Positions 1 to 59,004 of a stretch of DNA of 64,000 nt are shown here, piece after piece (the stretch's first letter is position 1; each line of letters opens with the position of its first letter). The stretch comes from Polynucleobacter sp. Tro8-14-1 (GTDB taxonomy: Bacteria; Pseudomonadota; Gammaproteobacteria; Burkholderiales; Burkholderiaceae). The notes under the pieces were generated by a model, which was not told where the DNA came from, ran no database searches, and saw nothing but the letters and a program-made list of their open reading frames with translations. The stretch lies in contig NZ_JACVPX010000009.1 of assembly GCF_018881655.1 (NCBI RefSeq), forward strand, positions 20,726-84,725, given 5' to 3'. Position numbers and translations under genes: made by a program.

Positions 1-3000
1 GTACTATTAAAGGCTGCGGTTGTGAGATTACTTAAAGTGAGGCTATCGCCGGACACCAGGCCAGTGATCGACAGGTTCGCTAGGCCAACCGTGGCGTTCG
101 CTGTGCCATCGTAAGTCTTGGTGACATTGCCGGTTGTCGCTAACGCGAGGTTGGCGGCGGTGATGTTAACGGTATTACTTGCGCTTCGCGCCGTTAAGGT
201 CGGCAACTGATAGTTGCTAACCAAGCCCCCGGCTGATAATGTGGCTCCGCTTTGATTACCTAGTGTAATTGCAGTAATGTAATTAGTAGAGTTGTCAGCT
301 ACGTGACCGCTATTAGCGGTGGCTGCAGTATATGTCAGCGTCTCGCCTGCCACGCCAGTTGCAATAGTTACATTGGTCAAACTATTACTTCCGCTATATA
401 CCTGTACATCACTAATTGTGATAGTTTTCGGAGTGATATTGCCTGTAACGCCAGTTTGTTGAACTACGTTGTAATTGCTTGCATCTGCACCAGAAATACT
501 AGAATTTAGGGTAACGCTCAGGTTGCTACCGACGTTCTTGCTGCTGAAATTACCACTGGCACTTAGTGATACAACATCGCTTACGGAAGATGTCGCATTA
601 CTAAGTACGCCGCCTAAGGCGCCATTGTTGGTAAATGTCGCTACAGTGCTATTGCTATAAACAGCATCAGTTACTTGAGTTCCTGAAACAGTCAGATTTG
701 CCTTGGTAACCTGAATGGTTCCGTTTGAATAGGTGATCGTGCCATAGCCCAATGAATTGGTAGTGATGCCAGTAATGCCTGCTGTGTAATTGCCTGCTTT
801 TAGGTAACCAGCTGTCGAATAACCAGCCCCAGCAATCGCCAATGTTGGTACGTTAGCCGCACCAAATATCTGGGTATATGTATCGCCATTTTGCGTAGTA
901 GAGCTCATGGCACTGGATGTGCTGTTGCCATACACAATCGTTGCATTACTTGCGCTGATAGTTAAAGTAGGCGCCTCACGATAAATAGCGTAAGTGCCCG
1001 TACTCAATGCAGCTGAAGTCGCGTTATATCCATTTGCAGTTGCATTACTACCGTAACGGAATCTACCGCTGCCACTACCAATCAAGGTTGTTATACCTGT
1101 ACTACCCGCAATACTTCCAGTGAACAAGGTAATACGCCCACCGGATCCAGATGAGACATTACCGCTTCCTGACAAAGTGATATTGCCACCTGTCGCTGTT
1201 CCGTTAGCAGTGCCTGATCCAGCATTCAGAATAATTGCACTGGTTCCGTTAGTGCTGGTGGTATTAACCGTCTGGGTTAACGCTAGGTCACCTGCAACAG
1301 TACTGATGTTTACTAATCCGCTGGCGTTAACTCCATTAACACTACCAATTGTTCCAATGGTCAATCCATTGGCATCAACATACGTTACGTTGGTAACATT
1401 GCTTGCGGCAAATGTAGTGACATTATTGCTTGTATTGGAAAGGTTGATATTGCCGCTCTGAACCAATAAGTTAGCTGCAATAAACCCTGCTGTCTGTGTA
1501 GCATTACCACTTAAAAGCACCCTATTTACGGACACGGAGCTGAGTGCAGAGTTAATGGCAATGTTAGGGGCAAATAACGATAAGTTGCCCGCAAACCCAG
1601 TCATTGAGCTGTTGTAAGCTAAATTGGCTGTAGTACTAGCAACATAAGCAGTGCTATTGGCATAGGTCATGCCACTGTACTGACCTAAGACTAGGTTAGC
1701 CAATGAACTCACGTTAGCAATAGATAAATTACCGAATGTTGTGCCACTCGTTGTTGTGAAAGTACCAGTTGTAACGGTTCCATTCCATGTACCAGTCGTA
1801 CCCCAATCAGCCGCTGCATTTGGTGCCCAGGTTAAGGTGCCTGAAGTATTAACGGTTAATACATTCGAACCAATTTTTGGTGTGATCAAGGTGATATTGC
1901 CCGAACCAGCATCAATTTTTGTTCCACTGGTAACCGAAAGAATGGATCCACCGGTCACGGATGCATTACCAGACCAGACCATGACATCGCCACCACTGGT
2001 GGTGATGTTGCCATTGAAATCCATAGCATTATTATTGGCAGCCGATGAGCCAGCTGACCCGCCATCACCTACGGTTAAACCGTTCCAAACCAATGAACCA
2101 TTTGTGGTTGAACTCCCACCAATCCATACCATGCCGCCATTGGTTGTGATATTTCCCGTTCCGCTATTGCCACCATAGTTGGTATTGCCATAATCGGACC
2201 ACTCAATCACATTGGCAGATGTGCCAGTCGCTGAAATATTGCCGTTAATTTGAAGGCGACTATTGGATCTCAGCGTGATATTAGATGTTGCCCCACCCGT
2301 TTTTTGTATTGAGCCGACGCCAGACATATAAATTGCGTAGTTATCACTCGCATTGTTGCCCTGAACCCATAAATCTCCGGTGCCATTACTAGTCATGGCC
2401 GCGGTAATGTTGACTTCACCACCGTAGAGAGAAATACCGCCCTTAACAGTTACGTTGGAATTCCAGTCAACAGCATAAGTGTTGTAAGGATTACCAATAG
2501 TCAGCTTATTAGGCGTATAGGTGGTGCCGTTAATTGTTGGATTCAGGTTGAACCAGGATGTATAGACATCTTGTCCAGATGACGCTGTGTCAGATAACGG
2601 CAAGATTGAAATGCTACCGTTAGTGCCAATGGTAGTGGTGCCTAAGCTCCAAGTATTGGCGCGAAGTGTGACATTGCCGGTGCCGGTATTAATCGTTGGA
2701 GCTTGACCATTAAATAACTGTGATCCACTAATCGTAATATTAGCGTTTGTTGATGTCACGTTACTACCAGCTAATTGACCTACCGTTCCAGCTAAGAAAA
2801 TATAATTATTGTTGGTAGTCGTGATATTAATATTGCTACCCCCGGCTAATACATTGCCATACATCACAATGCCGCGATTGCCAGAGCTTGCCGTTCCCGT
2901 TAACGTAACATTACCCACATCAGAGATGATGTTGTTATTGTTATAAATATAAAGTCCCGCCTGAACACCGGAACCAGTAAGCGTTACATTACCGCCAGTT

Positions 3001-6000
3001 GATCGAATCGTGCCGCCTTGACTAGTATTGTCAAAATAAGAACGGATGCCAGAGTAATCATAGTCATTGGTACCCGACCCAGTTGTCGAACCGGTAATAG
3101 ATATGTCGCCTTTGGCAATAATATTGTAAGCACCACCATCCCACGTATTTAAATAGACTCCAGCTAGAGTTCCGCAACCAGCAATATTGATGGAACCATT
3201 ACCAGCATTAATCGTCGCATTGCGACCAAAAAGGACGGCATTGCCCCCAGAAGTATTGCCTTGTATGCTGATGTTTCCACCACCGGAGTACATCGCTACA
3301 TTAGTGGTGCTACCACCAAACTCAATTGCCCAATCCGAATTCTTATTCACTGCACCTGTAGGTAGGACAAAGCCAGCGGCATCCGTAGTAGTAGCCGTGC
3401 CACCGCCGACGATAATTGCGCCGCCGCCAGCTAGTTGAGATGTATTGCCATTGGCGGAATTTAAAACAATATTTCCATCTTGCAATACAACGCCACCAGC
3501 AACGCCGCCATTAGAGTTGGACCAGAAAACTAAGGAGCCGTTATTGGTTTGATAGGTACGTGAAACGTTCACACTAAAGATTTGACCGGTAGCTTTTAGG
3601 ATGAGAGCATTGCCAGCGCCTGAAGAAGTAATATTAGAGCCGGAGTAAATTCCACCAACAGCATTAATCGAAATTACGCCAGCAGAAGAAATATTCGTGC
3701 CAGCAAGATAAGTGCCGTATGTAGCTGCGCCAGTATTGCCATTAATGGTGATATTGCCTGAAGTCGAGGTAATGGCTCCAATGCCGCTATCAAGAACCCA
3801 GTCAAAGCCATAACTAGATCCAGAGGTTCCCGTTAAATTGATATTGCCACTATTGGTAGTAATGTTTCCAGAATAAATATAAATGCCCTGATTGGCTGCT
3901 GCAGTCGTACCGGTAAGGTTAATATTTCCTGCACCAGCAATCAGATTAAAGTTCGAGTTGATGTAAGCGCCAAGATAGCTGGTTGAGGTTGCACAAACAC
4001 TAATTCCGCCAGTGCCTTGCGAGGCATTTAAGTTAACTGTGGCACCCGAATAAATACCATCGCTTGATGAAGATGTGCCATATAAATTGATGGCGCCAGC
4101 GCCTGATGTCGTTACATTAACAGCTACACCAAAGTCAAGTCCAATATTAGATACGGCAGTACCATTTAAGGTGACTGATCCACCCGCTGTACTGAAGTTT
4201 GTTTGATTGGTAACAAAATTGATGCCAGACTGGCTGCCGGTCTGGTTACCAACGAGCGAAATATTACCTGTTGTGGTTGTGAAATTACCACCACCCAAAT
4301 GAATGGCATCGTAACCAAGTGAACCAGTTACGTTAAATGTAATATAGCCTGTCGTAGTTGAGTAATTAACGGTATAGGGCTGGTAAAAACCCGCCCATGA
4401 TGGAGAATTTGCCGTAATTGAAATTGAGCCGCCACTGGTCGACTTAATGTTGCCCAGGTAATACTCAATTGCACTAGAGCCGCCACTGCCATTCAAAGTA
4501 ATATTGCCAGAGGCTGATGTTAGGTTAAACATGTTCACCGCATCTGAGCCTAAACGAATGCCGTAATTACCAGCTGCTGGAGTTGACGTTCCTGTAATGC
4601 TGATAGCACCGGTACCAGTTGAATTAAATTCAATACCGTTATTGGCAGCATAAACTGCAGCTGCTCCACTAGAGCTAGCATTAATGGTAATACCCTGTGC
4701 GGTAATGCTGGTGCCATTCGTAGCACCACCATAAGCATTGAACTCAATACCATTGCCAGTAGCATTTGTCTGAATATTTAGGGATCCATTACCAGCATTA
4801 ATGACCGATGCGCGATCAAACATCACGCCATAACCACCGGTGCTCTTGGCATTAATAGAAATATTGCCGCCACCGGTATACATCTTTGTGAATGTATTGC
4901 CAGCGCTACCAGGATTAAATGTAATCGTATTGCCTGCGCTGACTGCAGCGCCAGTTGGATTACCATTGGCGTCAACAGTTGCACCACCACCAAATATGAG
5001 GTCACCGCCACCGGTTGCCTGATTGGTAGCCCCATTCGCCGTATTAAATATCAGACCAGCATTGAGCATAGAAATGCCACCGCCAGAAGTGCTGTTGGCA
5101 TTACTCCAGAACACCATCGTGCCATTATTGGTCTGGAAGGTCAGGTTATCAGCGCCTGATGCAATTGATCCTAGTGCTTTGACTAGTAAATTCGAATTAG
5201 CGCCAACACTCTTCAAACTGCTACTGAGAGTGATATTGCCTGCGTACAAGCTAATTGGCCCGGAAATATTGAGCGCACTTGAAGATCCAATCGTTAAATT
5301 GGCAGCATTGGTTGCGCTACCTATTGTGAAGGCAGTAAAAGCATTAGCAACGTTGTAATTGACCGATTGTGCCGCACCAAAGCTAGTGCCATTTGGCTGG
5401 ATCAGAATAGTGCCTGAGCCAGTAAAGTTTCCAGTGCTCGGTGCATTTGTATTGGTAAATGTTAGCGCTCCACCCGCAACACTAGTATTGCCCGTATAAG
5501 TTGCTGCGCCAGTAATGTTGACTGCATTAGCCTGGCTAATGGTGAGAGCACCTGATCCAGAAATCGCATTACCAATCGTGATGGCATCAGTTCTATTAAA
5601 GGCGACAGAAGCGCCACTACTAATATTGATATTAGAGCTTGCGTTAACGCTGCCGACAGCAGTGCCATTGCCAATCTGTAAAGTACCGCCTGTTACATTG
5701 GTGCTACCTGAATAGGTATTTGCTCCAGTCAATATGGTTATGCCGGAACCAGCTTGGGTCAAAGTACCCGTGCCACTAATGCCTAAATTTTGCGTTACTG
5801 TATCGCTATGGTTATAAATTAACGTGCCGTTATCAGCAATTGCGGCGGTGCTTGCAATCGAACCTACTGTTGTACCGTTACCGATCTGTAATGTACCAGC
5901 ACTGATGGTTGTATTACCTGTGTAGATACTAGCACCAGTAAGGGTTAATACAGATGATCCATTAACAACTAGATTACCAGCGCCTGCAATAACGCCCGAG

Positions 6001-39272: not shown

Positions 39273-40319
39273 TTATTGAATAGCCAATACCGCATGGGCA
39301 TTTGCTCGTGAGATGGATAAAGCGCATCGCAGGTTCACCATGGCGTACATCGCCAAGGTGTCGTGCGGACGGATTGGGGCAACGATGTCTAAGTCATCAT
39401 CACGTAGCTTCATAAAGCGGGTATTGAGGAAATAGCAACGCTTGCTCCACTCCACAGTGCGATTCGCCATGGCATCAAGCTCATCAAACTGCGGATCCCA
39501 GATGATCTCTACCCCCTTGAAGGCTAAGCCAGTGTTAACACCAGCACCTACCCCGGCATCAATGTACTTAGTCTCACCAGATCCCGCAATATGGGTCACC
39601 GTCACTTGCTTACGATAGGTATCAATGAACTTACCACCCGCGATGATGAAATCAGGACTACCGCCATGCTTAATACATTGACGCCATGCGGTTTCCATCT
39701 CACCCACTAAGTTACCAGGCGATGTTGAGGCAATGTCTTTGATAGCGTAGTTACGCCAGTAACTTGCTTTAGCTCGATCGATACCTCCTACCGTTCCAGC
39801 ATCGGGCGCTAGGCTGACTAGACTATCTAAGCCAACTACCGCATCGGCGCCGTGGGAGCCGTCGCGGTGAAGTTCTAGGTCTAACTTATTCAGAAAGCCT
39901 TCTCTTAAAACCTCTAACTGCTCATCCAAGAGGTTGATGAGTTGTACGCGCTCGTTGTATTCCAACTGGAAACCACGCGCCCCGCCCTCACGCACCTTGA
40001 TGCCGTTACTAAAGAGTCGGTCATAGTCGATATAAAGACCATCTACCGCCCTTCTCCATGGGAAGGAGGCCTGCTCAGTCGTATTGCGTTTATTGAACTT
40101 GACCGTCTCCTCCCCAAAGGCCCAGCTAAAGTTACTGCCATGCTCTTTGCGGATGTTCTCGACTACGTTTTGCTTTGCGCCCAATAGGCTCTTACGACCC
40201 TCCATCAGTTTTTTAAGGAAAGGTCTCTCTACAGCGATTTGATCGACCGGTAGATTACGCAAGTACTCATCTAAGGAAACCTTGGCTAGCTCTTGCAAGT
40301 CTGTATTTGAAATTGGCAT
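39273..40319 (-). CDS. Probable major capsid protein
   Basis: This 348-residue protein has features of phage major capsid proteins of the type paired with P22-like portals: ERPFLKKLMEGRKSLLGAKQ, FPWRRAVDGLYIDYDRLFSN, the central GLDSLVSLAPDAGTVGGIDR, WRQCIKHGGSPDFIIAGGKF, and GVEIIWDPQFDEL. No separate protease gene is present. I chose ATG 40319 because a GGGGTGG stretch precedes it; a start at 40334 is the alternative. It lies after portal and scaffold-like genes on the same strand but is separated from them by a plus-strand exonuclease-Fic insert. Confidence 0.75.
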   Translation of the reverse strand: MPISNTDLQELAKVSLDEYLRNLPVDQIAVERPFLKKLMEGRKSLLGAKQNVVENIRKEHGSNFSWAFGEETVKFNKRNTTEQASFPWRRAVDGLYIDYDRLFSNGIKVREGGARGFQLEYNERVQLINLLDEQLEVLREGFLNKLDLELHRDGSHGADAVVGLDSLVSLAPDAGTVGGIDRAKASYWRNYAIKDIASTSPGNLVGEMETAWRQCIKHGGSPDFIIAGGKFIDTYRKQVTVTHIAGSGETKYIDAGVGAGVNTGLAFKGVEIIWDPQFDELDAMANRTVEWSKRCYFLNTRFMKLRDDDLDIVAPIRPHDTLAMYAMVNLRCALSISRANAHAVLAIQ

Positions 40320-40768
40320 ATGCCACCCCATCAATAATTATTTAAGAAATTGGTGGCTTCATACCTGGTGATGGAGCGTGAACCCATCCATTGCTACGCT
40401 ACTAGTCGCGACTCTAGCTTTTACGCGATGGTATGAAGCAGTAGATTGAGTGATTAGCTCTCACCACATGAATTGATTATTGGGGTGCTTGGTGTGGGGT
40501 TTGGATATTTCTGGGGTTTTTATTGGCCGATTTATTCACATCGCTATGAGTCTTTATACCCAATGTGTCTTTGCGCCACCTTGGGCATAAAAGAGCGTTT
40601 CTTTGGCAGTGGCCGTCAAGGGTGCGCAAGCCACCCCTTTGGGGTGCCCTTGACTGAATTACTCTATCGTAAATTCATTAATAGGAATGTGGTGATTTAT
40701 TTTGTTTGACTCTTTGCAGCTTGATCTCTACATTGCTCATTCATCTAAATGAATAGTGAAGGAGTCCC
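40320..40768. other. Intergenic region with a complex hairpin and a promoter
   Basis: This 449-bp stretch between the capsid gene (minus) and the exonuclease gene (plus) contains a structured element at 40615-40654: outer stem GTCAAGGG/CCCTTGAC and inner stem ACCCC-TTT-GGGGT, with a bulge on one side. A plus-strand promoter is at 40706-40734. A 78-codon frame at 40473-40709 was not called, having no start signal and no family likeness. Confidence 0.5.
40706..40734 (+). promoter_or_regulatory. Promoter of the exonuclease gene
   Basis: TTGACT (40706-40711), a 17-bp spacer and TACATT (40729-40734) precede the exonuclease start. The -10 region CTACATTGC is also found in the promoter before the alpA-type gene (52977-53005). 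Confidence 0.6.
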
Positions 40769-43104: not shown

Positions 43105-44307
43105 CTATATCCCCATATTCCCTAGATGCTGAGCAATTCGATCCATGGGATTGCCTGCGCTGGCCAATGGCGTGCCTAGGGTTGAGGTTCGCGCCCGTAT
43201 AGGCTGAGGGCTATGGGTTGCCATAGGCTTAATGCCTCCAAAACTAGGCTCCGGCCTTCCAATCGCCTCATAGATGGACTCAATCATGGTCTGCCACTGC
43301 TCTGGCTGATTGCTCTGCACAAAGACTTGCATGTAGAAAGGGTCTGACATGTATTTGCTAAAGCAGATCGCCTTATCGGTGTGATCAATTTCATCTGAAC
43401 GAGTATTCAAAAACTTGAGCATCTGCAGCTTTGCTTCTAAGACTAATTCGGAAGGCTTTTTCTGTGAATCCACGTGAGCCATCACATTACCCACAAACTT
43501 GCTTTCTATTTCATATTTACGAATCACGTCTTGCAAGCTTGTAACCGTGCATTGAAGATCTTCAACCTGCTTTTCTAGATCACGCTTTTCATTGATGATT
43601 CTCTGCACACGCTCACAACCCCTCTTCGATTTGATGTTGCTAGAGGCTTCTTGGTTAACGCTGCCATCGACACCAGGACTCAAACCCGTAGGCCCGGGGT
43701 TCAATACCCGCTTAATTAGATCTTCACCAGTTTCGATTTGAATCTCAGTTTTCGGAAGTGTATCGACGGTAATGGCGACTGGTGCAGGCAATATTTCACC
43801 AAGGTCATGGGCTTGCGGTGCTGCCTTAAGCCCTGAAGTAGGCATAAAGGCTGGTACATGCACCTCGCCCTTCATAGGCGTAAATATAGACTCGGGCTCC
43901 AGAGCTTCAGACTCCTCTTCCAATGCTTCGCCCTCATCAAGATCCTCAGATAACTTGGCAAGAGATACATTAGGGGCCTTAGTTAAATCATCTAGTAAGT
44001 TGGCTGCTTGGCTCCGACTCTGGCTCTTACGCTCAGCCTTTTGGGTTTGTTGTGCCTGAGCGCTACGCTCCTTATCTAATTGAGCGGCTTCTTGCCTGGC
44101 TTTTGCTTGCGCAATCAATTCAAGCGCACGCTCTTCCCTTGCCTTATTGCGCCTTGCAGCACTTTCGGCCGCGTGCTTCTCATAAGCTTCTTTTTCAAGC
44201 CGCTCGCGCTCTTTCTTGGCCTCCCTATTCTGCTCCCTTTGAATTGAGCCACCCTTGCTTAGTACCTCCGATTTAAAGCCTTCCACTTCATTTGCTACTT
44301 GCGTCAT
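43105..44307 (-). CDS. Coiled-coil protein, probable capsid scaffold
   Basis: This 400-residue protein has a charged N-terminal coiled coil (about 20-110, rich in Lys, Glu, Ala, Arg), an acidic and Pro-rich middle (about 125-225), a second coiled coil (about 230-270, INEKRDLEKQVEDLQ) and a helical C-terminus. It overlaps the portal gene by 20 bp and has a strong ribosome site (GAGGAGG). Its place between portal and capsid and its helical nature suggest a scaffolding protein. I recognise no specific family motif, so the role is inferred from context. Confidence 0.65.
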   Translation of the reverse strand: MTQVANEVEGFKSEVLSKGGSIQREQNREAKKERERLEKEAYEKHAAESAARRNKAREERALELIAQAKARQEAAQLDKERSAQAQQTQKAERKSQSRSQAANLLDDLTKAPNVSLAKLSEDLDEGEALEEESEALEPESIFTPMKGEVHVPAFMPTSGLKAAPQAHDLGEILPAPVAITVDTLPKTEIQIETGEDLIKRVLNPGPTGLSPGVDGSVNQEASSNIKSKRGCERVQRIINEKRDLEKQVEDLQCTVTSLQDVIRKYEIESKFVGNVMAHVDSQKKPSELVLEAKLQMLKFLNTRSDEIDHTDKAICFSKYMSDPFYMQVFVQSNQPEQWQTMIESIYEAIGRPEPSFGGIKPMATHSPQPIRARTSTLGTPLASAGNPMDRIAQHLGNMGI

Positions 44308-46249
44308 TGCCTGCCTCCTCTTTTAATAAGTTGCTGCTGTAATGCATTTCAGCGTTTGTCTTTTGCCTTCGCTCAGAAAACCAATTCATTCCTAAGTTTG
44401 GATCGTCATCGCGTGACCATCCCTCCATTTGCTTTTCTACATTCGGTATAAATAGATTTGAATCGATACGATCGTCATATCGCAAGAGGGTCTCGTGTAG
44501 GAGATTACGGATATGCTCGTAATCCATTCCTCTGGCTTGTAGGTTTTGCATCTGAATTGATAGATTCGTAATCATGGGTAAGACCTTGAGCCAGCTTTCT
44601 TTGTCCTCTATGCCATCTGGTGCGCCGGTAGTGCCTGCCCTGATACGTAGATCAACCATGTCAAAGATTCGGTCTTTGGTGAGTTCTGGCCAGTCATAGG
44701 TTTTCTCCATAGTCATGACTAGTTCGCCGTTGACCATGGCGGTCTTGGTGCTTGGTGGGCCCATATAGCGCTCTACTTGCTCTTTGCTGAGTTCTTGCAA
44801 AAGTACCTGAGCGCTGTATTGCGCGATCTCTTGTAGCCAATCTTCTATCTGGTCTTTAAATTCAAATACGCGCCCAGATAAGGCTCTTTGTAAGATGTTG
44901 GCTTCGGTTGCTGTCTTAGGTCTGACTACTGTAGAGCGCGCAGCATCTTGCAGGCCAGTGACTTGCTCCCAGTCATAACGTACTGCGCTGGTGTCGTAGA
45001 CGATGGGATCGATTTTGGGGTGGCCTCTAGGAATAATCACTTGATTCAGAGGCTTGCCTTCGGTATCCACAATCGTGATCTCGCCAAATCTTGAATCTGA
45101 GTGTTTCTTAATGGTCTTTTCATTGATATCGGCAGATGCTACCCATCCCGGTATGCAGAGGTCGCGATGTTGATTGAATCGATCCCTTGCTTCGTTGTGC
45201 TCGTCTTGCAAGCGCTCAGTCAGATCAACCAGACTTGGACCTACGAATTGACCATCGACTACTTGGTAAGGCAATAAGAAGAATGGGTACCAGCGCTCTC
45301 CTGCTCTTGGTGGTGAGTAAGGTTCGCGTAGCCATTCAGTCGCGCCCTCTACCATGGTGTAAACACGCTGGGTAGCTCTATCCCAGATCTCTAGCACTGC
45401 TATTTGCTGATCATCAGTCACCGGTCCTGAACCAGCATTCATTTGCATCGAGGCTAAGCGTTTGGCTTTCTTATGAGATGGTTCACCTTGACCTGGTTGG
45501 TAGATCTTGGCATTAGCTAAATTCTTCTTGTAGAGCGCTTCTGCTTGGCCGCGTTTCATAGGAATGATTTGGCAGATCCAGTCCGCATCGGTGTAGTCCC
45601 AGAACTCACAGATTGAGGGGTCGATGAGAAGGTTTTCAGTAAGGACCCTGTCGATTACTAAGCCTTCAGCAGACCGCACTTCTGATTGCTCTTGAAGTGA
45701 CTTAATAAGCTCTTCCAGCTCGGCTCTCTTGGCATCATGATGATGGCTTTGATCATCGTCATGAATGTCCTTCTCTAGATCATGAATCGCGAGGAGGTTT
45801 TCTTGGGCATCATTGATGCGACCTTGGATATAGGAATCCTTGCTGGGATCTCTTTGATACATCACTTTGAGAATTCCGAAGCTACAGGTCAGCGCTGCCC
45901 TTACGGTGGACTTGGCTCGATTCTTTAATTGGGCATGTTCTAGCGCTCTATTGGTGACTTTCTCTAGCGTTTTACAAAAGAGCTTGATATCCGAGCCCGA
46001 GTGGGTTGGGGTTGTTGAGATCTCTGGGTTACGTGCATAGACGTTAGGTAGAACTGCAGAGATAGTTCCATGAATGAGGTTGGCTCTTAGGCTGTAGAAG
46101 TCTTTACCAGCGGGATCAGCATTCCAATTAAAGCCAGCTACGGTATTGCGGTTGTGTCTTACGCGTTTATGAAAGGTTGACCAGTGAGCACGCGCATGCG
46201 TGATGCGGGCGGTCCATTTTTGTTGAAGGGCTTTGGAGTCTTGGGGCAC
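44288..46249 (-). CDS. Portal protein (P22-like)
   Basis: This 653-residue protein resembles P22-type portal proteins: NATVNTVAGFNWNADPAG-like N-terminus (NTVAGFNWNADPAGKDFYSL), INDAQENLLAIHDLEKD, a WFY-rich core (ERWYPFFLLPYQVVDGQFVG), GPSLVDLTERLQDEHNEARD, and the helical stem EANILQRALSGRVFEFKDQI. It forms the dodecameric ring through which DNA is packaged. The start is a GTG at 46249 since the ATG 3 bases upstream is in another frame. It lies upstream of the scaffold-like gene and is separated from terL by the Mrr-nSTAND gene. Confidence 0.85.
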   Translation of the reverse strand: MPQDSKALQQKWTARITHARAHWSTFHKRVRHNRNTVAGFNWNADPAGKDFYSLRANLIHGTISAVLPNVYARNPEISTTPTHSGSDIKLFCKTLEKVTNRALEHAQLKNRAKSTVRAALTCSFGILKVMYQRDPSKDSYIQGRINDAQENLLAIHDLEKDIHDDDQSHHHDAKRAELEELIKSLQEQSEVRSAEGLVIDRVLTENLLIDPSICEFWDYTDADWICQIIPMKRGQAEALYKKNLANAKIYQPGQGEPSHKKAKRLASMQMNAGSGPVTDDQQIAVLEIWDRATQRVYTMVEGATEWLREPYSPPRAGERWYPFFLLPYQVVDGQFVGPSLVDLTERLQDEHNEARDRFNQHRDLCIPGWVASADINEKTIKKHSDSRFGEITIVDTEGKPLNQVIIPRGHPKIDPIVYDTSAVRYDWEQVTGLQDAARSTVVRPKTATEANILQRALSGRVFEFKDQIEDWLQEIAQYSAQVLLQELSKEQVERYMGPPSTKTAMVNGELVMTMEKTYDWPELTKDRIFDMVDLRIRAGTTGAPDGIEDKESWLKVLPMITNLSIQMQNLQARGMDYEHIRNLLHETLLRYDDRIDSNLFIPNVEKQMEGWSRDDDPNLGMNWFSERRQKTNAEMHYSSNLLKEEAGNDASSK

Positions 46250-46315: not shown

Positions 46316-48568
46316 TCATAGGCCTCTATCAAATAGATCATCAATTTCATCAATGGAAATTTTGACCGGCCCCTCATACTCATGATCGCAATCATCATAT
46401 GCGTTCATAAGATATTTCTCAAACTCATAGGGTATATCCACTGTTTCAATGATTTGATTGACATCCTCACCCGTGAATTCAAGACCTATATTACTTAACT
46501 CCCTCTCAACAATTTGAGCCAAAGAGTCCTCGGCCTCCTCATCACCACCATCCCGGGCATTAGAGAAGGCTTCATTTAAATCAATAAACTCTGAAAAATT
46601 ATCTGCAATTTGCTCTATGCTGCTTATTTTTACAAGTTCAAAAATTTTAGAATAATTAGGTTCAGAGTTTGGAATGCTTGCCAAGAGTGACTGGACTGTC
46701 TTCATTTGCGTATACGAATAAATCGAATTCGCTGAACTCTCAATAAAACTAAGCGTTGCCATAGGTTCTATGATGCCCCGCTTAAGACCCCACTCAACCA
46801 CCTCAAATGAATGATCCGTGATTTCTGCGCCATTGTTTAGAATGTATAACAAGGTGCAGCTTATCTCATCGATGATCTTGCTATCTTCGCGCAAGCAATC
46901 TTTATATAAAGCGCATAGCGCTGATATATATTCAGAATCCACATTACCAAATTGGTCTTTTTCGAGATCTTTAATAAGCTTCTCGCAAATATTATGTACA
47001 TCATCTTGAGATAAATATTTATCAGCCCATAGACTACGGATCGTTATCACGGAACGCAATGTCAGCAAGCTCTGAAAACAAAGTTGAAAGGTGTCAACAT
47101 CTCCAGAATAACGTTTAAGAATGTAATCCCCAATAGATGGATTAAATAAGTCAATAAGCGACCTTCCATCCGACAAAACTGTCCGATTAAAAAATGACCC
47201 CGTTAACAAACGTATGCTGGATTGAAACTCATGCCTACCTTTAAAGTTGCGACACCTGGGTAAAAGCAAAAATCTATGATAGGCCTCAGAAAGAATTTTT
47301 TCCTCGATTGGCCCGCCGTTTAAGACCATTAGAAGTATTAATAGACGACCATAATCATCTTGCTGCGCATTAAATGGGTTTTCCCAAACTTGGGATGGAT
47401 TTGATAGGGACTGAGAAATGAATTGCCAATAATTAGCAGCAGAATTTGATTCCAGCCTTGTGGCATCGGTAATATAGCTAATTAGACGAGGATTAAAATT
47501 TTTGTGCGCAATCACATCTCTGTATCTTTTATTAAGATATAGCTCTTCTACATATGAATCATCTAAATTTGAATACCAGATATGGTTATATAAAATATGA
47601 GCTTTATCGATATCTTTAAGAGATTTTATGCGTAACTCATATTCATTTTTTTGTGTATTTCCGTGATCAAAGTTATCGATCAAGAATTTTCCTTGATTTA
47701 ATATGGTGCTTCTTGAAGTCAAAACAAATCTTTTATTTTTATTTGATGCAACACGTCTCATAAACATTGTTATTTGATTCCCCTCATGACCCCCCAAGGC
47801 TTCTAGATAATTTCTACCTAAAAAATCGTCAAAATAAAATACTTGCTTGCTTTCAGAATCAAAGGCGGACTCTGCCTCGCGAATATCGTTGACTACCCTG
47901 AAGTAGGCAAACCCTTTGGCAACATAGTGAAGGCATAAATGGTCCGCGAGGGTAGTTTTTCCTACGCCGGGCTCACCCGCAATAATCACCACCCCCAATC
48001 GATCTAAGATCTGCAACGCTGCCTCGTGGTTTGTAGTCACAACATAACGCGAGCTAGATGCAATAATTTCCTCAAGGGAATGTGCACTTCTTCCCAATAT
48101 TGCATTGTTATAAATTTGCTCTAGGACTGCAGTACTATGCATCCAGAGCTTATAGTGTCGCTTCTCAATTTTAGGTCTAGCGCGAAGAAGATCATTAAGA
48201 TCCTCCATGCCCAAGATGTCGCTTTCCGCCTGAATATACGGCGCCAGTAAATCTGAAATTTGTTTTTTATTGTGTCTCGATAGTGGGTGTGAGATTGCTA
48301 ACAGATAACGTTTTGGCTTTAGCTTATCAAGCTTGATCTTTTCATCGCTACCAAGCTTTTTGATAAGCTGGGCTAAAGATGTGCCAAGCTGATGCTTGCA
48401 TTGCAGAATTACCTCATCCCCATCTGAACTAAAATATCTCCCATCTACTCCGCCATCTTTACCAGGTTTAAATCTCTCAAAACGTTGGCCATGAGAGTCC
48501 CCAATCAAATCAGAGCAAAAAATCTCAAATTCTTTATCGTTAAGCGATCTAAAATCATAGTCGGACAT
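46316..48568 (-). CDS. Mrr-type nuclease fused to an nSTAND NTPase
   Basis: This 750-residue protein starts with a restriction-endonuclease-like domain: NDKEFEIFCSDLIG, FKPGKDGGVDGRYF and VILQCKH give the E, D and QxK residues of an Mrr-type nuclease. A P-loop NTPase of the nSTAND3 kind follows: Walker A IIAGEPGVGKTTLADHL, Walker B QVFYFDDFLG, sensor RFVLTSRSTIL. The remainder is a helical, probably repeat-type sensor region. Such nuclease-STAND proteins are typical antiphage effectors. I prefer ATG 48568 (MSDYDFRSL) over 48577, because a GAG-containing site precedes it at a workable distance. It is AT-rich compared with its neighbours and splits the terL-portal pair, so it is a likely late insertion. 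Confidence 0.82.
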   Translation of the reverse strand: MSDYDFRSLNDKEFEIFCSDLIGDSHGQRFERFKPGKDGGVDGRYFSSDGDEVILQCKHQLGTSLAQLIKKLGSDEKIKLDKLKPKRYLLAISHPLSRHNKKQISDLLAPYIQAESDILGMEDLNDLLRARPKIEKRHYKLWMHSTAVLEQIYNNAILGRSAHSLEEIIASSSRYVVTTNHEAALQILDRLGVVIIAGEPGVGKTTLADHLCLHYVAKGFAYFRVVNDIREAESAFDSESKQVFYFDDFLGRNYLEALGGHEGNQITMFMRRVASNKNKRFVLTSRSTILNQGKFLIDNFDHGNTQKNEYELRIKSLKDIDKAHILYNHIWYSNLDDSYVEELYLNKRYRDVIAHKNFNPRLISYITDATRLESNSAANYWQFISQSLSNPSQVWENPFNAQQDDYGRLLILLMVLNGGPIEEKILSEAYHRFLLLPRCRNFKGRHEFQSSIRLLTGSFFNRTVLSDGRSLIDLFNPSIGDYILKRYSGDVDTFQLCFQSLLTLRSVITIRSLWADKYLSQDDVHNICEKLIKDLEKDQFGNVDSEYISALCALYKDCLREDSKIIDEISCTLLYILNNGAEITDHSFEVVEWGLKRGIIEPMATLSFIESSANSIYSYTQMKTVQSLLASIPNSEPNYSKIFELVKISSIEQIADNFSEFIDLNEAFSNARDGGDEEAEDSLAQIVERELSNIGLEFTGEDVNQIIETVDIPYEFEKYLMNAYDDCDHEYEGPVKISIDEIDDLFDRGL

Positions 48569-48722
48569 AGGCACCATCTCAAAATTAAGTGCGGGTTACC
48601 ATAGGGGCCCGTTCGTATTTAAGTGTATTACAGTAGTACAACTGCGCTACACATGGCCTTGTCTGCTATTAGAGAATGCCTTCCTAAAAATAAGCCCGGT
48701 CACCGCGCGCAATAAATATATA

Positions 48723-51032
48723 TCAACCCCCTTCAGTCAATGACCGCCGCCTCATTAACCCATACCTAGTGGCATCCCAAGCATGGTCTTCGGCATCGGT
48801 ATCCACATCTTCGGGGTTTAGTGAATCTGGCGGCAATTGGGGTATGGTTCTAAGCCAATGCTTGCAAGTGCTAAATACTTTGAGTCTTTCTTCAGCCAGA
48901 AGCCGGATGATTTCTTGGGCTCCGTTTACTCTGCTTCTGGGGGCGTTGTAGGCCTCGGTCCATTTAACGCCTTTGTCCCTGAAGATTTGTCCGATAGATC
49001 GCTCTGCTCCAATCTTAGAAAATATGGATGGGTCAGCCAGGTTCATGCGGTATTCATAACCAAGGCGTTGGTCGTGGATCTCAATCTTCTTAATTTTCTC
49101 CGCTACTACCGTTGCGTCTTCTCTCGTACCGGTATTTTCTTTATCTCCATATCCATAGAGTTCTCTCCATAGATAATAGACTCCATCATTGGATAAGGCA
49201 AACCAATAGACGGCATAAGGTCTGGCATAACCCCAATCCATAGAGCGCCAGACCTTCCATGTCGGTGGAATTGCGAAGGGTTCTACAACGTGTTTAGAGG
49301 GCTGCCATACGCCTTCCAAGAAACTACCTACGTGGATATCCCAATCTCCTTCTAACCACGCTCTACGTCTGCTTGGATCACTTAGCGACTCCAAGCTCAC
49401 GAGGTAGTTGGGATCATTTCTGAGTAGGTGCGTGTTCTCGTAAATCGTTGAATGAATTCTGACTCTTGGGAGTGCGCCATCTGGTCTGATGATTTGACCT
49501 GCTGGAATACTTCCAATCTGAAATCTTTCTTTTACCGATGCATGTCCTACTCCAAATGGATTGCAAGTAGCCCTCACCATCCTAGGGATTCCGGGTTGCG
49601 AAGATCGACAAGTACTGAGCATCGCCTCGTAAAATGAAAGGTTGCGCCAGTTAGTGAGTTCTTCAAATCCCAGCCAGCAATTTTTATTAATTAGGCCAGT
49701 TTCTGTAATGTAGTGATTACTTTCTTCAACTGTTATATCCATTATTAAAGAGGAGCCACATGATTCATACACCACCCAACCATCTTTTAGTCGACGATTC
49801 GTTTTTTGAATTTTCCCACTGTAAGGATGAGGGTAAGCCGTTACGTCATCGTAACGGCTACCTGTATGAGCGCTGTCCGAAACATCCGCAAGCAGACTTA
49901 CATGGACGCGTTCTTCAGCACCGCCGTGAAATGGAGCGCCACCTGGGTCGATTTTTAAAAGGGCATGAAGTTGTTCATCACTTAAATGGAAAGAAGGATG
50001 ACAACCGAATTGAAAATCTTGAGCTGCTTGGATCTTCTCGGGAGCATATGCAAGCGCACTCGAAGCGCAGAGATCTAGCCGTGATTGAAAGGGTTCGAAA
50101 AGCTGCGCAAAATCCCAAAGCCCCGATTCATTCGCTTGGCATAAGCCCAGTTCTTGCTCGCGCCATCTGCCGTGATAATGCGATCGAGTGGATTCCGGCG
50201 GATGAGACAAGACTTGATCCAACGGATGTGCAGCAAGCATTAAATGGTCGAAAAACGGCCGACGCTGCCAAAATTCTGGGAGTGTCTGTAGGAACTCTAT
50301 ATCGTAATTTTCCCGAGCTTTTAAGTAAGCGCAAGCCCCCTGGTTTTTTGGATAGCTATATAGAGGAGATTTGCATCCTTGCCATGACCTTGAGCACTGA
50401 TCAAATTGCGAAAAACTTCGGGACAACTCGGACGACCATGAATAAGGCTTTTGAACGTTGGTCAGCAACTGGTGATCTACCGATTGAACTTGTGAGCCGA
50501 TTAAACGCTGATGGTCGTCGTAAACGTAAGCTCTAACGCATTCTTTGACCTGCGGTTCAAACGTACGAGTAATGCGCCGCTCGCCATCTAAGGTGACAAC
50601 CTTATCTCCAATGCGAAGCCTATCCATTGGAACGAATCCATTCGGCGTTAAGACTGGCGTCTCAAGGGCAACGCAATACTCATGGCCGTGGTAATTCCAG
50701 TAGTCGTCTTCGTTAGCTCCATAACGAAAGTACAGCATTTCCCCTGTGGGCCACTTCCAGACGTAATCTGATTCATTGAACTTGGCTCCAGGGAAGATTT
50801 GATAGAACCAACGCTTGCTCTTAGCTACTACGTCAGCTAGCTGCGGATAAGTTAGACGAAAGAGTGTTCCGCGCCAGTGATCCCCAAAGCCTCTTCCTAC
50901 ATGTTGGGCATAGCTCATGAGTAGGGTATCGGTCTTACCCCCTCCTCTGGTGCCTTCGAGCAATACCTCATACACGGGACATGTCAGAAACAAAGTCTGG
51001 CTGCCGGGCAATGGCGCCCAAATAGTTTTCAT
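48723..51032 (-). CDS. Terminase large subunit containing an intein
   Basis: This 769-residue precursor encodes the ATP-driven DNA packaging motor and nuclease. The N-extein (1-119) has Walker A GTRGGGKT (27-34). The intein (120-451) interrupts the sequence HGHEY|CWLGFEELTNW, which is the Walker B region (LGFEEL). The C-extein (452-769) has the RNase H-type nuclease acidic residues in RSMDWGYARP, MNLADPSIFSK and EDHAWDATRYG. Without the intein the protein is 437 residues, a normal terminase length. It follows terS by 17 bp. A functional terminase requires translation through the whole intein followed by splicing. A plus-strand HNH gene overlaps the intein part. Confidence 0.92.
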   Translation of the reverse strand: MKTIWAPLPGSQTLFLTCPVYEVLLEGTRGGGKTDTLLMSYAQHVGRGFGDHWRGTLFRLTYPQLADVVAKSKRWFYQIFPGAKFNESDYVWKWPTGEMLYFRYGANEDDYWNYHGHEYCVALETPVLTPNGFVPMDRLRIGDKVVTLDGERRITRTFEPQVKECVRAYVYDDHQRLIGSQVQSVDHQLLTNVQKPYSWSSELSRSFSQFDQCSRSWQGCKSPLYSYPKNQGACAYLKARENYDIEFLQTLPEFWQRRPFFDHLMLAAHPLDQVLSHPPESTRSHYHGRWREQELGLCQANESGLWDFAQLFEPFQSRLDLCASSALAYAPEKIQAAQDFQFGCHPSFHLSDEQLHALLKIDPGGAPFHGGAEERVHVSLLADVSDSAHTGSRYDDVTAYPHPYSGKIQKTNRRLKDGWVVYESCGSSLIMDITVEESNHYITETGLINKNCWLGFEELTNWRNLSFYEAMLSTCRSSQPGIPRMVRATCNPFGVGHASVKERFQIGSIPAGQIIRPDGALPRVRIHSTIYENTHLLRNDPNYLVSLESLSDPSRRRAWLEGDWDIHVGSFLEGVWQPSKHVVEPFAIPPTWKVWRSMDWGYARPYAVYWFALSNDGVYYLWRELYGYGDKENTGTREDATVVAEKIKKIEIHDQRLGYEYRMNLADPSIFSKIGAERSIGQIFRDKGVKWTEAYNAPRSRVNGAQEIIRLLAEERLKVFSTCKHWLRTIPQLPPDSLNPEDVDTDAEDHAWDATRYGLMRRRSLTEGG
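49680..50675 (-). other. Intein in the terminase Walker B motif (332 residues)
   Basis: Splicing motifs are visible. Block A CVALETPVLTPNG starts at Cys120, IGDKVVTLDGE follows, and block B SVDHQLLT has the conserved His187. Block F MDITVEESNHYITETGL and block G INKN|C give the terminal Asn451 and the +1 Cys452. The penultimate residue is Lys450 where most inteins have His. The region between blocks B and F (about 195-410), where a LAGLIDADG or HNH domain would normally be encoded in frame, shows no endonuclease motif in this frame. It instead carries an HNH gene on the other strand (49760-50536). Confidence 0.88.
49760..50536 (+). CDS. HNH homing endonuclease encoded antisense within the intein
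   Basis: This 258-residue protein has a classical phage-type HNH domain: RHRNGYLYERCPKHPQADLH, LQHRREMERHLGRFLKGHEV, VHHLNGKKDDNRIENLELLG and EHMQAHS. Two helix-turn-helix-like DNA-binding segments follow (ADAAKILGVSVGTLYRNFPE; TDQIAKNFGTTRTTMNKAFE), as in DNA-recognition tails of homing enzymes. Its own ribosome site (AAGAGGAG, 5 bp before ATG 49760) lies in the block F coding region. It is wholly inside the terminase gene on the opposite strand; its last ~26 codons are complementary to intein block B. It should cut intein-less terminase genes and spread the intein. Confidence 0.88.
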   Translation: MIHTPPNHLLVDDSFFEFSHCKDEGKPLRHRNGYLYERCPKHPQADLHGRVLQHRREMERHLGRFLKGHEVVHHLNGKKDDNRIENLELLGSSREHMQAHSKRRDLAVIERVRKAAQNPKAPIHSLGISPVLARAICRDNAIEWIPADETRLDPTDVQQALNGRKTADAAKILGVSVGTLYRNFPELLSKRKPPGFLDSYIEEICILAMTLSTDQIAKNFGTTRTTMNKAFERWSATGDLPIELVSRLNADGRRKRKL

Positions 51033-51049
51033 TGGTTTTGTTTAATTCA

Positions 51050-51502
51050 CTAGTGTTTTGCTTGGGCGACTTGCTCCCACTCATCTATGCTCATAGCGCT
51101 GGGCACCACCAAGACTCCACTCTGTAGAGGTGCGCCATCTTTACCGGTGTGCTCAATTGCTGAGAGACGTGGATGAACATAGGGCGCAGCATGCCTGGCG
51201 ATAGTAGCAGCCATGTTCAGGAGTTTGATTCGACTCTCGGTGATCATGATGTCATGATCATGACCTACACCTTCATGAGCATGATCATCATGCTTAGTGC
51301 AGTTTTCTGCCTCCTTGTAAAGCGCCATCATGGTTCTCATCATGACCTCTAAAGGTGTAATGCCCTGCGCGGCGGCTACCTCTGCAATTTCACGAGTCCT
51401 CTTGGTGAGGCTTCCCTCTTTACGCCCTGCTCCTGGCCTAGCTCCTCCTTTATTTGCCGGCTTTGCTTTTGGCTTTGATTTCTTTTGATTGTTTTCAATC
51501 AT
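51050..51502 (-). CDS. Terminase small subunit-like protein
   Basis: This 150-residue protein has a basic N-terminus with the GGARPGAGRKEGSLTKRT motif common in phage small terminases, a helical central part, and SAIEHTGKDGAPL near the C-terminus. It lies just before terL, where TerS normally is. An unusual His/Asp-rich stretch HDDHAHEGVGHDHD (71-84) sits in the middle. It would recognise the packaging site on element DNA. Confidence 0.8.
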   Translation of the reverse strand: MIENNQKKSKPKAKPANKGGARPGAGRKEGSLTKRTREIAEVAAAQGITPLEVMMRTMMALYKEAENCTKHDDHAHEGVGHDHDIMITESRIKLLNMAATIARHAAPYVHPRLSAIEHTGKDGAPLQSGVLVVPSAMSIDEWEQVAQAKH

Positions 51503-56661: not shown

Positions 56662-59004
56662 TTAGGCGTAGAGCTGGTTTTCTAGCTCATGCAATGCAGC
56701 TATATAGCCCGGCTTACCGCCAAAGGCTGATACAAGTTCGCTAGCTGTGCCCATTTTACTAAATGGGTCTAGGGTCAGAATTTTAATATCATCGATATTC
56801 TCGATACCGGTATCTGCGTATTTTTCAAGTAAGGCCTCGAGAACCTTACGAGCCTGTTCGCCATACTTGGTGAAGTAATTACGCTTTTTGACTTGATCTG
56901 CACGCTCCCTACGAGTGAGTGCAGGCTGATCAAACGCTACATGGCAAATTAAATCAAAAGCATCGCAGTCTTTATTAACTTCGATCGCCAATGCCTCTAG
57001 TAAAAGGCCATGCTCTTCCAGCTCCTTAATAACAGCAGCCTTACGCTCAGCGGAAGTCCATCTCTTTAGAAATTGATCTAGCGTTGAGTAGTCTTTTCGT
57101 ACTGCTTTACGGGTGTAGTCCTTTAAGGACTCTGTAATCAACTTACCTTCGGGTCCGTAATACTGAACCCGCTCGGCAATAACCTGAACCTCTACATCAC
57201 CCACAATGTATTTAGCTCTCACACCCTCTGGTCCAGGAGGAAAGCCAGGGGGTTCCGGAGGAACGGGCGGCTCAACTCCGGGAGGCGTTGGCGGCTCCAC
57301 CGGAGGAACCGGGGGGTCATCAACCCCAGGCTCATAGATAACAATTGGCGGACCATCAAATGCCTCATCAGCAAAAAGCTCGGTAGCCTTTTTAAAGTCC
57401 ATGATGGTGAACCAGTACTTGTCGTAATCTTCGTTAATGCGGGTACCACGCCCAATCATCTGCTTGAACTCAGTCATGGACTTGATATGTTGATCAAGCA
57501 CTACTAATTTACAGGTCTGAGCATCTACACCAGTAGTCATTAGCTTAGAGGTTGTAGCAATTACTGGGTAACGTTCTTCTGGGTTAATGAAGTTATCAAG
57601 CTCAGCCTTGCCCTCTTGCTCATCACCGGTAATACGCATGACGTACTTGCGATTTTCTTTGACTCGCTCTGGATTTAGATTAACCAAGGCTTGACGCATG
57701 CGCTCTGCGTGATCAATGTCATCACAAAATACGATAGTCTTAGCAAATGGATCAGTAGCCGTTAAGAACTCAGTGATTTTCTTTGCAACTAGCTCTGTAC
57801 GCTTTTCTAAGACCAGGGTTCGATCCATGTCGTTCTGGTTGTAGATGCGATCCTCGATTAATTGACCACGTTTATCTACTTGTCCAGCACTGGGTCTCCA
57901 GCCTTGGAGATCCCTATCTATATCAATCCGGATTACTTTATACGGAGCAAGGAAACCATCTTCAATACCCTGCTTTAGTGAGTAGCTGTAAACAGGGTCA
58001 CCAAAATAAGTAATGCTTGATATTTCTTTGGTTTCTTTTGGTGTAGCTGTTAAGCCAATGTGTGTGGCAGAGGAAAAGTAATCCAAGATCTCACGCCAAG
58101 CTGAATCTTCAGAGGCGCTGCCGCGATGACACTCATCAATCACGATCAAATCAAAGAAGTCTGGTGAGAACTGCTTATAAATATTCTTTTCTTCATCGTT
58201 ACCAGTAACAGCCTGGTAAAGGGATAAGTAAATTTCGTAGCTCTTATCAATCTGACGCTTGCTGATCTTAGTCATTGCAGCGCCAAATGGCTTGAAGTCA
58301 TTATTCTTGGTTTGATCCACAAGGATATTGCGATCAGCTAAAAATAAAATGCGCTTCTTGGTTCCAGACTTCCATAAGCGCCAGATGATCTGAAAAGCTG
58401 TGTATGTCTTCCCGGTACCCGTAGCCATTACCAGCAGAATACGATTGGCACCATTGGCTACAGCTTCGATTGTTCTATTGACTGCATTGACTTGGTAATA
58501 CCTTGGAGCGCGCCCAGTGCCATCGTCGTAATAAGGCATTTCTACGGTATTTTTTGCCTCAGGGGTATCAACACCCTTCCATCTGCAATAACGCGCCCAT
58601 AGCTCTTCTGGCGACGGGAATGCGTCCAAAGAAAGCTCTTGCTCTACCTTATCCGCCTGGCCAGTTCGATCATGCATTAAGAATGCATCGCCATTTGAGC
58701 TAAAGACAAAAGGAACATCCAGCGTTTCCGCGTAATCAAGTGCTTGCTGCATTCCCGCGCCAACACTGAGGTTGTTTTCTTTAGCCTCGATTACGGCGAT
58801 GGGAATATTAGATTTGTAATACAGGACATAATCTGCGCGCTTTTGCTGTCCGCGGGTATGTAATTTGCCGCGAACAATAATGCGGCCTTTAGTAAAACTT
58901 AATTCCTCGCGAATTTGGGTGTGCAAATCCCAACCTGCGCCAAGAATGGCTGGCGTAATGAATTTCGTACAAATATCTCGTTCGCTAAGGGATTTCTTGC
59001 TCAT
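56662..59004 (-). CDS. hsdR: Type I restriction endonuclease subunit HsdR
   Basis: This 780-residue protein has an N-terminal PD-(D/E)xK nuclease domain ([23 protein letters not shown]) and a superfamily 2 helicase/translocase (motif [14 protein letters not shown]; motif [11 protein letters not shown]; motif [13 protein letters not shown]; motif [11 protein letters not shown]). A Pro/Glu/Val-rich linker (about 560-593) leads to a C-terminal EcoEI-type domain. It is the first gene of the hsd unit; a 39-bp gap separates it from hsdM. Confidence 0.94.

Follow-up and report, generated by a model that had tools for sequence, protein, structure and literature searches.

Homing endonucleases are found with splicing elements in several arrangements. 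Split inteins with free-standing endonuclease genes, the 'fractured genes' of Dassa et al. in 2009, reportedly keep the endonuclease apart from the splicing domain. Mycobacteriophages have homing inteins with an in-frame endonuclease domain in their terminase large subunit (TerL) (PMC5050341). In ShiLan-type insertions an HNH gene in a shifted frame overlaps an open host frame, and the insert has no splicing domain (PMC11855218). Nuclear rDNA group I introns carry antisense His-Cys endonuclease genes that are expressed and active (PMC9548176). Here we describe a stretch of 64,000 nucleotides from Polynucleobacter sp. Tro8-14-1 (contig NZ_JACVPX010000009.1, positions 20,726 to 84,725), called the window below, in which the terL gene of a prophage in this 2.24 Mb genome appears to contain an intein with an HNH endonuclease gene running through it on the opposite strand.

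The TerL precursor is encoded on the minus strand at 48723..51032 (769 amino acids, 437 if spliced) and matches the PHROG terminase large subunit (8.3e-30), with models of this family matching on both sides of the insert. Comparison with empty alleles divides it into an N-extein of TerL residues 1-119 ending in GHEY (50676..51032), an intein of 332 residues, C1 to N332 or TerL C120..N451 (49680..50675), and a C-extein that begins with CWLGFEE and includes the stop codon (48723..49679), all on the minus strand. The beginning of the C-extein is presumed from motif reading to be the Walker B strand. The intein starts with CVALETPVLTPNGFVPMDRLRIGDKVVTLDG and ends with NHYITETGLINKN, followed by C. 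The splicing blocks, likewise on the minus strand, are block A, CVALETPVLTPNG, at 50637..50675, block B, GSQVQSVDHQLLT, at 50460..50498, block F, IMDITVEESNHYIT, at 49704..49745, and block G with Cys+1, ETGLINKN/C, at 49677..49703 (here and below a slash marks an end of the insert). On the plus strand, the HNH gene occupies 49760..50536 including its stop codon and encodes 258 amino acids, with HNH_3 (9.2e-10) followed by helix-turn-helix motifs (HTH_23, 6.7e-6), both above the Pfam cut-off, and a PHROG HNH match was also obtained. Its presumed ribosome-binding site is GAGGAG at 49750..49755, plus strand, and a Shine-Dalgarno-like motif precedes the ATG in four of the five alleles introduced below; residues H54, H73, H74, N82 and N86 are invariant across all five. 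Intein codons 48-305 face HNH codons, and intein residues 81-302 (49770..50435, minus strand) are the part that we treat as the antisense shadow of the HNH gene. A first-pass annotation made from the letters of the DNA had already proposed a TerL frame open through a 332-residue intein and an opposite-strand HNH gene with its own ribosome site. The coordinates, open reading frames and GAGGAG were all confirmed, and the spliced length of 437 residues that it predicted agrees with the parsed exteins. Its placement of the HNH gene between the splicing blocks is right in broad terms; strictly it is not, since the 3' end of the gene faces block B and the ribosome site lies just before block F.

We explain this locus, at a probability of roughly 0.86, as a homing intein whose antisense strand carries the endonuclease as a separate gene. 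Translation of the terminase precursor would run through the insert, and a Hint domain made from the two insert ends (about residues 1-80 and 300-332) would then excise the insert and join the TerL halves. The central ca. 220 residues would be a read-through of the HNH gene, an unstructured linker that splicing presumably tolerates. The HNH protein, for which the gene has a start and a ribosome site of its own, would cleave terL alleles that lack the intein close to the insertion point, and repair would copy the whole insert together with a short downstream tract that includes the Cys+1 codon, which splicing would need in place of Pro; divergence patterns are what suggest the mobility. Similar inteins are found in other phage terminases and terminase-like ATPases, and the window belongs with this larger set.

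Each of the known systems shares part of this layout. The split inteins are alike in having the endonuclease separate from the splicing domain, but their host gene is said to be in two pieces, whereas the terL gene in the window is unbroken, a single 769-codon open reading frame that overlaps the endonuclease gene and is not interrupted within the intein in any of the five alleles. The mycobacteriophage inteins are mobile splicing elements in an ATPase motif of TerL with the endonuclease coded inside the insert, as would be the case here, but theirs is part of the intein polypeptide and the one in the window is encoded on the opposite strand as a protein of its own (PMC5050341). In the sense frame of the window intein Pfam gives no endonuclease domain, with Hint_2 (below cut-off) as its sole match, and the middle of the intein shows no protein constraint and no confident structure. 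On this evidence the element would lack both the in-frame endonuclease that defines endonuclease-containing inteins and the broken gene of split inteins. ShiLan-type insertions resemble it in the overlap of an HNH gene with an open host frame, and also in that Pro in uninvaded alleles takes the place of the Thr or Ser that follows the insert in invaded ones; there the HNH gene is in a shifted frame and no splicing domain is present, in contrast to the antisense gene and the Hint residues seen here (PMC11855218). The rDNA introns come close in having a homing endonuclease gene antisense to the host inside a self-splicing element, but the element is an RNA intron whose host strand need not be translated, so that double coding is not required (PMC9548176). 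An open-access literature search, from which subscription papers are mostly absent, yielded no description of an antisense endonuclease gene within an intein among the matches listed, judged by titles and the beginnings of abstracts.

The evidence that both frames are kept comes from relatives sought in one viral collection, one genome collection and 186 genomes of the genus. Four further alleles with a complete intein were found, two on viral contigs (L024 and L023) and two in genomes (G505 and G400; in G505 TerL is cut by the contig end past the intein, 744 codons in). All five alleles have a 332-codon intein and a 275-codon open antisense frame, with no insertion or deletion. The HNH proteins of the other alleles are 81-96% identical to that of the window, and the inteins 62-92%. 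The ratio of nonsynonymous to synonymous substitution rates (dN/dS) is 0.10-0.25 for the HNH gene in all ten allele pairs and 1.14-1.71 for intein residues 81-302 in the same ten. At the ends of the intein it is 0.06-0.34 (residues 1-46, eight computable pairs) and 0.13-0.27 (last 24 residues, seven pairs), and for the exteins 0.02-0.03 (ten pairs). Between the window and G400, 98 of 163 HNH differences are at third codon positions. Because of this pattern across the pairs, we conclude that selection preserves protein sequence in the HNH and at the splicing ends, and that the middle of the intein is maintained only as an open frame. When the HNH protein of the window or of G400 was recoded with synonymous codons, a mean of 7.9-9.9 stops appeared in the intein frame, where the real frame has none, and for either protein at most 1 of 20000 draws left that frame open; after recoding of the window HNH the intein frame was open in 0 of 20000 draws with the codon usage of the window's genes and in 1 of 20000 with that of the HNH gene. 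The other two antisense frames carry roughly the expected numbers of stops. It is thus shown statistically that selection maintains the HNH protein and, apart from this, excludes stops from the frame opposite, and a chance overlap is ruled out by dN/dS, the recoding tests and the counts of avoided stops. The first-pass annotation had suggested looking for the antisense HNH frame in terminase inteins at this site: it is open in five of five alleles, the two frames are maintained together with HNH and splicing ends under purifying selection, and the overlap is conserved with the intein.

Close relatives without the insert give the comparison for mobility. Empty alleles read GHEY-P-WLGFE, versus GHEY-[332 codons]-C-WLGFE in occupied ones. 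In 102 intein-less rows (78 viral and 24 genomic, some of them identical) the Cys+1 position holds Pro in 91, Gln in 1 and Gly in 1, and the motif was not found in 9. The expected junction HGHEY/CWLGFEE is therefore right for the five occupied alleles, where C follows the intein, and wrong for most empty ones, which have Pro. Among the 186 genomes of the genus, a query with the HNH gene matches 3 and a query with the whole TerL and intein 33, at least one of these (G396) by chance. Among the window, L024 and G505 the synonymous divergence (dS) of the HNH gene is 0.07-0.09, versus 0.66-0.89 for the exteins. The pairs of L023 with these three have HNH dS 0.35-0.37 and extein dS 0.76-1.09, and the pairs of G400 with the other four 0.99-1.08 and 1.26-1.53. 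G400 serves as an internal control, and therefore overlap alone does not depress dS. The low HNH dS in the pairs without G400 suggests that the intein moved between terL alleles after their divergence. In the first 120 bp downstream of the junction the window, L024 and G505 differ from one another at 0-3 positions per 60 bp, and in later windows at 2-16. Such a tract is what co-conversion would leave, and it would also carry the Cys+1 codon. The proposal of one mobile unit in which splicing is uncoupled from the coding of the endonuclease gains from these data, given the empty sites in close relatives and an intein younger than the exteins in some pairs.

A different role for the HNH protein is conceivable. 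In some phages HNH proteins beside terminases serve packaging, and the window HNH might likewise be a domesticated packaging nuclease acting with TerL rather than a homing enzyme. Its location within a terminase gene fits this, as does that of its relatives in the wider set described below: in 86 of 91 the host is a terminase or similar ATPase and the insertion falls at its Walker A motif. However, close TerL relatives do without it, as the genus genomes show (3 versus 33 of 186, at least one by chance), and of 832 phage records that match the TerL of Pectobacterium phage Ymer (see below) 8 cover the insert; the HNH dS lies far under the extein dS in three pairs. We consider this alternative unlikely.

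Two side observations concern further copies. Outside the window, on the same contig of the source genome, there is a truncated second copy, broken off at both ends (L004, G000:C21:4727-5667), which contains part of the TerL C-extein, the C-terminus of the intein and the first ca. 48 HNH codons. It is probably a prophage remnant, and lies near a sequence read as a tRNA-Ser gene. The intein query also had weak matches in other genomes of the family (L104-L109); the two that were opened, L104 and L105, fall in what looks, on reading, like a type I restriction methylase gene, and were set aside as short chance similarities.

The layout is found well beyond this family. The survey was seeded with HNH queries, and its counts do not give a frequency among inteins. 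The window HNH returned 18 loci, two of the window family and 16 others, of which six (L010, L011, L012, L014, L015 and L020) are also antisense inside a long frame. With the HNH proteins of L012 and L014 as queries, an open antisense frame spans the HNH match in 81 of 81 rows examined (L149-L229); these queries returned 84 rows, the other three (L010, L147 and L148) belonging to the query's own group. The HNH of Pectobacterium phage Ymer gave the same layout in 17 of 17 rows, and that of L229, among 17 rows, one new case (L254), four known contigs and 12 weak matches without the layout. At other HNH loci a spanning antisense frame of 200 amino acids was absent in 23 of 23. Repeats or near-repeats were not recounted (L008, L017, L253 and L255-L257; L239 is the same contig as L206). 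HNH_3 is above cut-off in the antisense frames tested, and with Pfam Intein_splicing the complete frames of L012, L014 and L020 have E-values of 1.3e-8 to 1.1e-5, in each case just or well under the cut-off. The phase is identical to that of the window in 83 of 83 rows compared, and the 17 Ymer rows keep to it too, with HNH codon position 1 facing intein position 1, 2 facing 3, and 3 facing 2. The first-pass annotation underestimated the reach of the layout: further insertion sites have it, and so do isolated phages. Searches elsewhere gave little: plasmids had no match to the intein, a phage search with one further HNH at E 1e-20 had none, and among 369 genomes of the class the L012 HNH matched the window's own genome and one weak, broken locus, nothing else. 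Some loci (L240-L251) have antisense HNH frames of 283-323 codons from stop to stop, longer than most, in part at the sites GGAAS/C and GCSS/C.

Of the 92 rows pooled, an intein and an HNH gene could be delimited in 91 (the exception, L180, is truncated at its contig end), and 50 remained after removal of near-copies at 97%. The intein frame is free of stops in all 50 representatives, with 4.9-9.7 stops expected (1000 recodings each); this count is conditional, since parsing requires an open frame, and the unselected count is that of the 81 rows above. In 117 pairs, which share rows, the median dN/dS is 0.089 for HNH and 2.04 for the opposite intein stretch, with 114 pairs in the same direction. 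Across 485 HNH-synonymous differences, from 14 usable of 16 pairs (not fully independent, several being from one cluster), ca. 16.8 stops would be expected in the intein frame and none was seen. These numbers bear on the possibility that a free HNH gene broke a mini-intein, with a sense frame open by chance and a TerL that is dead or dying. The penultimate Lys of the window family, the truncated copy in the same genome and the loss of the N-terminal splicing part in one locus (L152) would all suit such decay. Against it, the exteins have dN/dS of 0.02-0.03 and the splicing ends are constrained, and there is no stop in the intein frame in five of five alleles and 50 of 50 representatives, where openness by chance occurred in at most 1 of 20000 draws for the window. 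It is very improbable that the locus is broken in this way.

That the insert is an intein is supported by evidence from sequence. In an alignment of 32 inteins, five from the window family and 27 picked from the wider set, six residues are invariant: C1 in block A, V26, H68 in block B, D313 and Y322 in block F, and N332 in block G. Among them are the residues that in inteins generally form the nucleophile of block A, the histidine of block B and the asparagine at the end. A profile of 30 inteins finds solved inteins (DnaB, RecA, gp41-1 and others) with a best E of 2.8e-16, the matches being confined to the first ca. 106 and last ca. 40 positions. An intein model based on five sequences was poor, with a mean predicted local distance difference test score (pLDDT) of 32.8. 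The one from 30 sequences has a mean of 44.7, with beta strands at residues 1-40 (pLDDT 81-89), 63-67 at residues 41-70, 53-79 at 301-332, and below 50 at 82-300, opposite the HNH gene. In a Foldseek search with the window intein model, 24 of the 25 best matches are inteins or intein-like domains, the best being an intein (E 2.3e-3, probability 1.00). Phage group I introns often contain HNH genes, and removal of the insert at the RNA level, or by translational bypass, might for that reason be thought of in place of protein splicing. However, the insert preserves the TerL frame and carries the conserved Hint residues, and an Rfam search of 48500-51500 gave one match far below its curated cut-off and no intron match up to E 1, making this a highly implausible explanation. 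The last alternative, a spurious HNH frame that is a shadow of the intein and makes no protein, can point to antisense frames arising by chance and to the absence of a visible promoter, but constraint runs the opposite way (HNH frame conserved, middle of the intein not) and HNH_3 and PHROG HNH models match, so it can be practically dismissed.

Several observations weigh against a homing intein with an antisense endonuclease. Splicing, HNH expression and cleavage of the empty site are all predicted, the prediction being one from sequence. Taken by itself, the window family has no more than a weak similarity to solved inteins (E 0.0023), its Hint_2 match misses the Pfam cut-off, and NCBIfam gives no match for the window intein. 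None of the Foldseek matches reaches E 0.001, and TM-scores are low. The family has a penultimate Lys where His is usual, and in block B the motif TxxH is replaced by SxxH, with Ser for Thr. Regarding expression, a promoter scan of the plus strand found a single promoter-like site, which falls within the HNH gene, and fewer sites than in shuffled sequences; Shine-Dalgarno-like motifs before the HNH genes are patchy across the wider set. Regarding mobility, divergence is not reduced in the upstream flank, and the approximately unbiased (AU) test does not reject a single clade for the occupied TerLs (p 0.713) in an extein tree of 93 rows, five of them occupied and 88 empty, from which 14 of the 102 candidate rows were left out because ends or motif were missing. 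With neither the extein tree nor the upstream flank in support, the evidence for repeated invasion comes from the dS contrast and from the flank downstream. Finally, L152 (1375-2007) has an insert of 211 residues from which most of the N-terminal splicing part is gone, with the HNH intact and the sense frame open; it is either a decayed copy or an assembly fault.

The insertion sites of the wider set centre on one motif. By motif reading, 86 of the 91 parsed rows have the insert inside Walker A (GGNR/C...HN/SGKT and similar in 77, GGNQ in 1, AGFG in 4, GAAG in 3 and GGRG in 1), and the five rows of the window family have it just before the presumed Walker B strand. Additional sites are GYG/C, AGNR/C, GGAAS/C and GCSS/C. 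In ten C-exteins of Walker A hosts, PHROGs gave terminase in three (L229, L219 and L205), a family of unknown function in two (L200 and L212) and no match in five. Pfam terminase models match six of nine C-exteins (L012, L200, L172, L229, L219 and L208), three of them above cut-off, and those of L155, L226 and L212 match no terminase model in PHROGs or Pfam. In all, terminase models from either source support seven of the ten C-exteins, some below cut-off. Since terminase identity is supported for only some of them, the hosts are called terminase or terminase-like ATPase here.

Isolated phages show the same thing. In Pectobacterium phage Ymer (OP748252.2, L230 1547-3811) an HNH gene lies antisense inside a coding sequence of 754 amino acids that adjoins the portal gene. 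The product is annotated as 'hypothetical protein' and is TerL (PHROG 1e-47), with the insert AGFG/C...HHN/TGKS and an antisense HNH frame of 232 amino acids. On inspection, Setonix, Sabo and Taid have the same layout. A query with the Ymer TerL matches 832 phage records, eight of which cover at least 80% including the insert (Ymer, Abuela, Sabo, Amona, Koroua, Setonix, Pappous and Taid); among the other matches listed, 31 of 32 rows start at residue 340, directly behind the intein. The intein-bearing terminase is labelled only 'hypothetical protein' in seven annotated records of this group, and in the opened stretches of three annotated records (L230, L234 and L235) the antisense HNH has no annotated coding sequence.

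A few relatives have an HNH_3 gene on the same strand as the host, out of frame within an Intein_splicing match. In L260 (host frame 826-4017, HNH 2633-3175, with L263 as a near-copy; Intein_splicing below cut-off) and L266 (host frame 1281-4031, HNH 2674-3213) the host is a DNA polymerase of family A. In L267 (host frame 1112-3694, HNH 2788-3525) it is terminase-like by reading only, with no Pfam match. Their host frames contain no stops, where 11.8, 10.8 and 3.7 would be expected in L260, L266 and L267, and after recoding the frame was open in 0, 0 and 35 of 5000 draws, making L267 the weakest case. The antisense layout may thus be one form of a wider overprinting of endonuclease genes on intein linkers. 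We think it probable on balance that such overprinted homing inteins form a widespread class, in which the linker of the Hint domain doubles as an HNH gene, antisense (in one phase so far) and rarely on the same strand out of frame.

How often the layout arose can be approached from several sides. In the window HNH the HNH motif comes first and helix-turn-helix modules follow, and in the Walker A set a conserved N-terminal module mostly stands ahead of the HNH motif. In a tree of Hint domains the branch of the window family is very long (3.96), and a tree of 45 HNH proteins (32 antisense and 13 others) has little resolution, with an AU p of 0.443 for one antisense clade. A profile comparison of the window inteins with the Walker A set aligned solely at the stretch opposite the HNH motif; it was not accepted as Hint homology, and we take it to be HNH homology showing through from the opposite strand, where the phase is the same. 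A single origin would agree with this common phase. Since the window family differs in HNH architecture and has a distant Hint domain, the layout may have arisen more than once, and we lean towards more than one origin.

Genes around the locus include one with a match to a portal protein (44288-46249) and one with a match to a major head protein (39273-40334). The gene that separates terL from the first of these (46316-48577, minus strand, 753 amino acids) matches the PADLOC candidate defence protein PDC-S73 (E 1.4e-279), and is possibly defence cargo in the packaging region. Further away, 56662-59004 (minus strand) matches the PADLOC type I restriction enzyme model REase_I (E 0).

The recurrence of the layout suggests a kind of mobile element for which no description was found. 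If this is true, it would be a third way of linking an endonuclease to a splicing element, beside fusion and separation, with the two on the same base pairs and on opposite strands. Overprinting would then hide the endonuclease from annotation, since rules that allow no overlap between genes will lose one of the pair. The set is also a natural experiment, run repeatedly, on how two genes can share a long stretch in antisense when one frame is constrained and the other just kept open, and a natural source of inteins that bear unstructured inserts of ca. 200 residues. For the phages themselves, the endonuclease would be freed from the intein polypeptide and could be expressed on its own schedule, for example before the late packaging genes.

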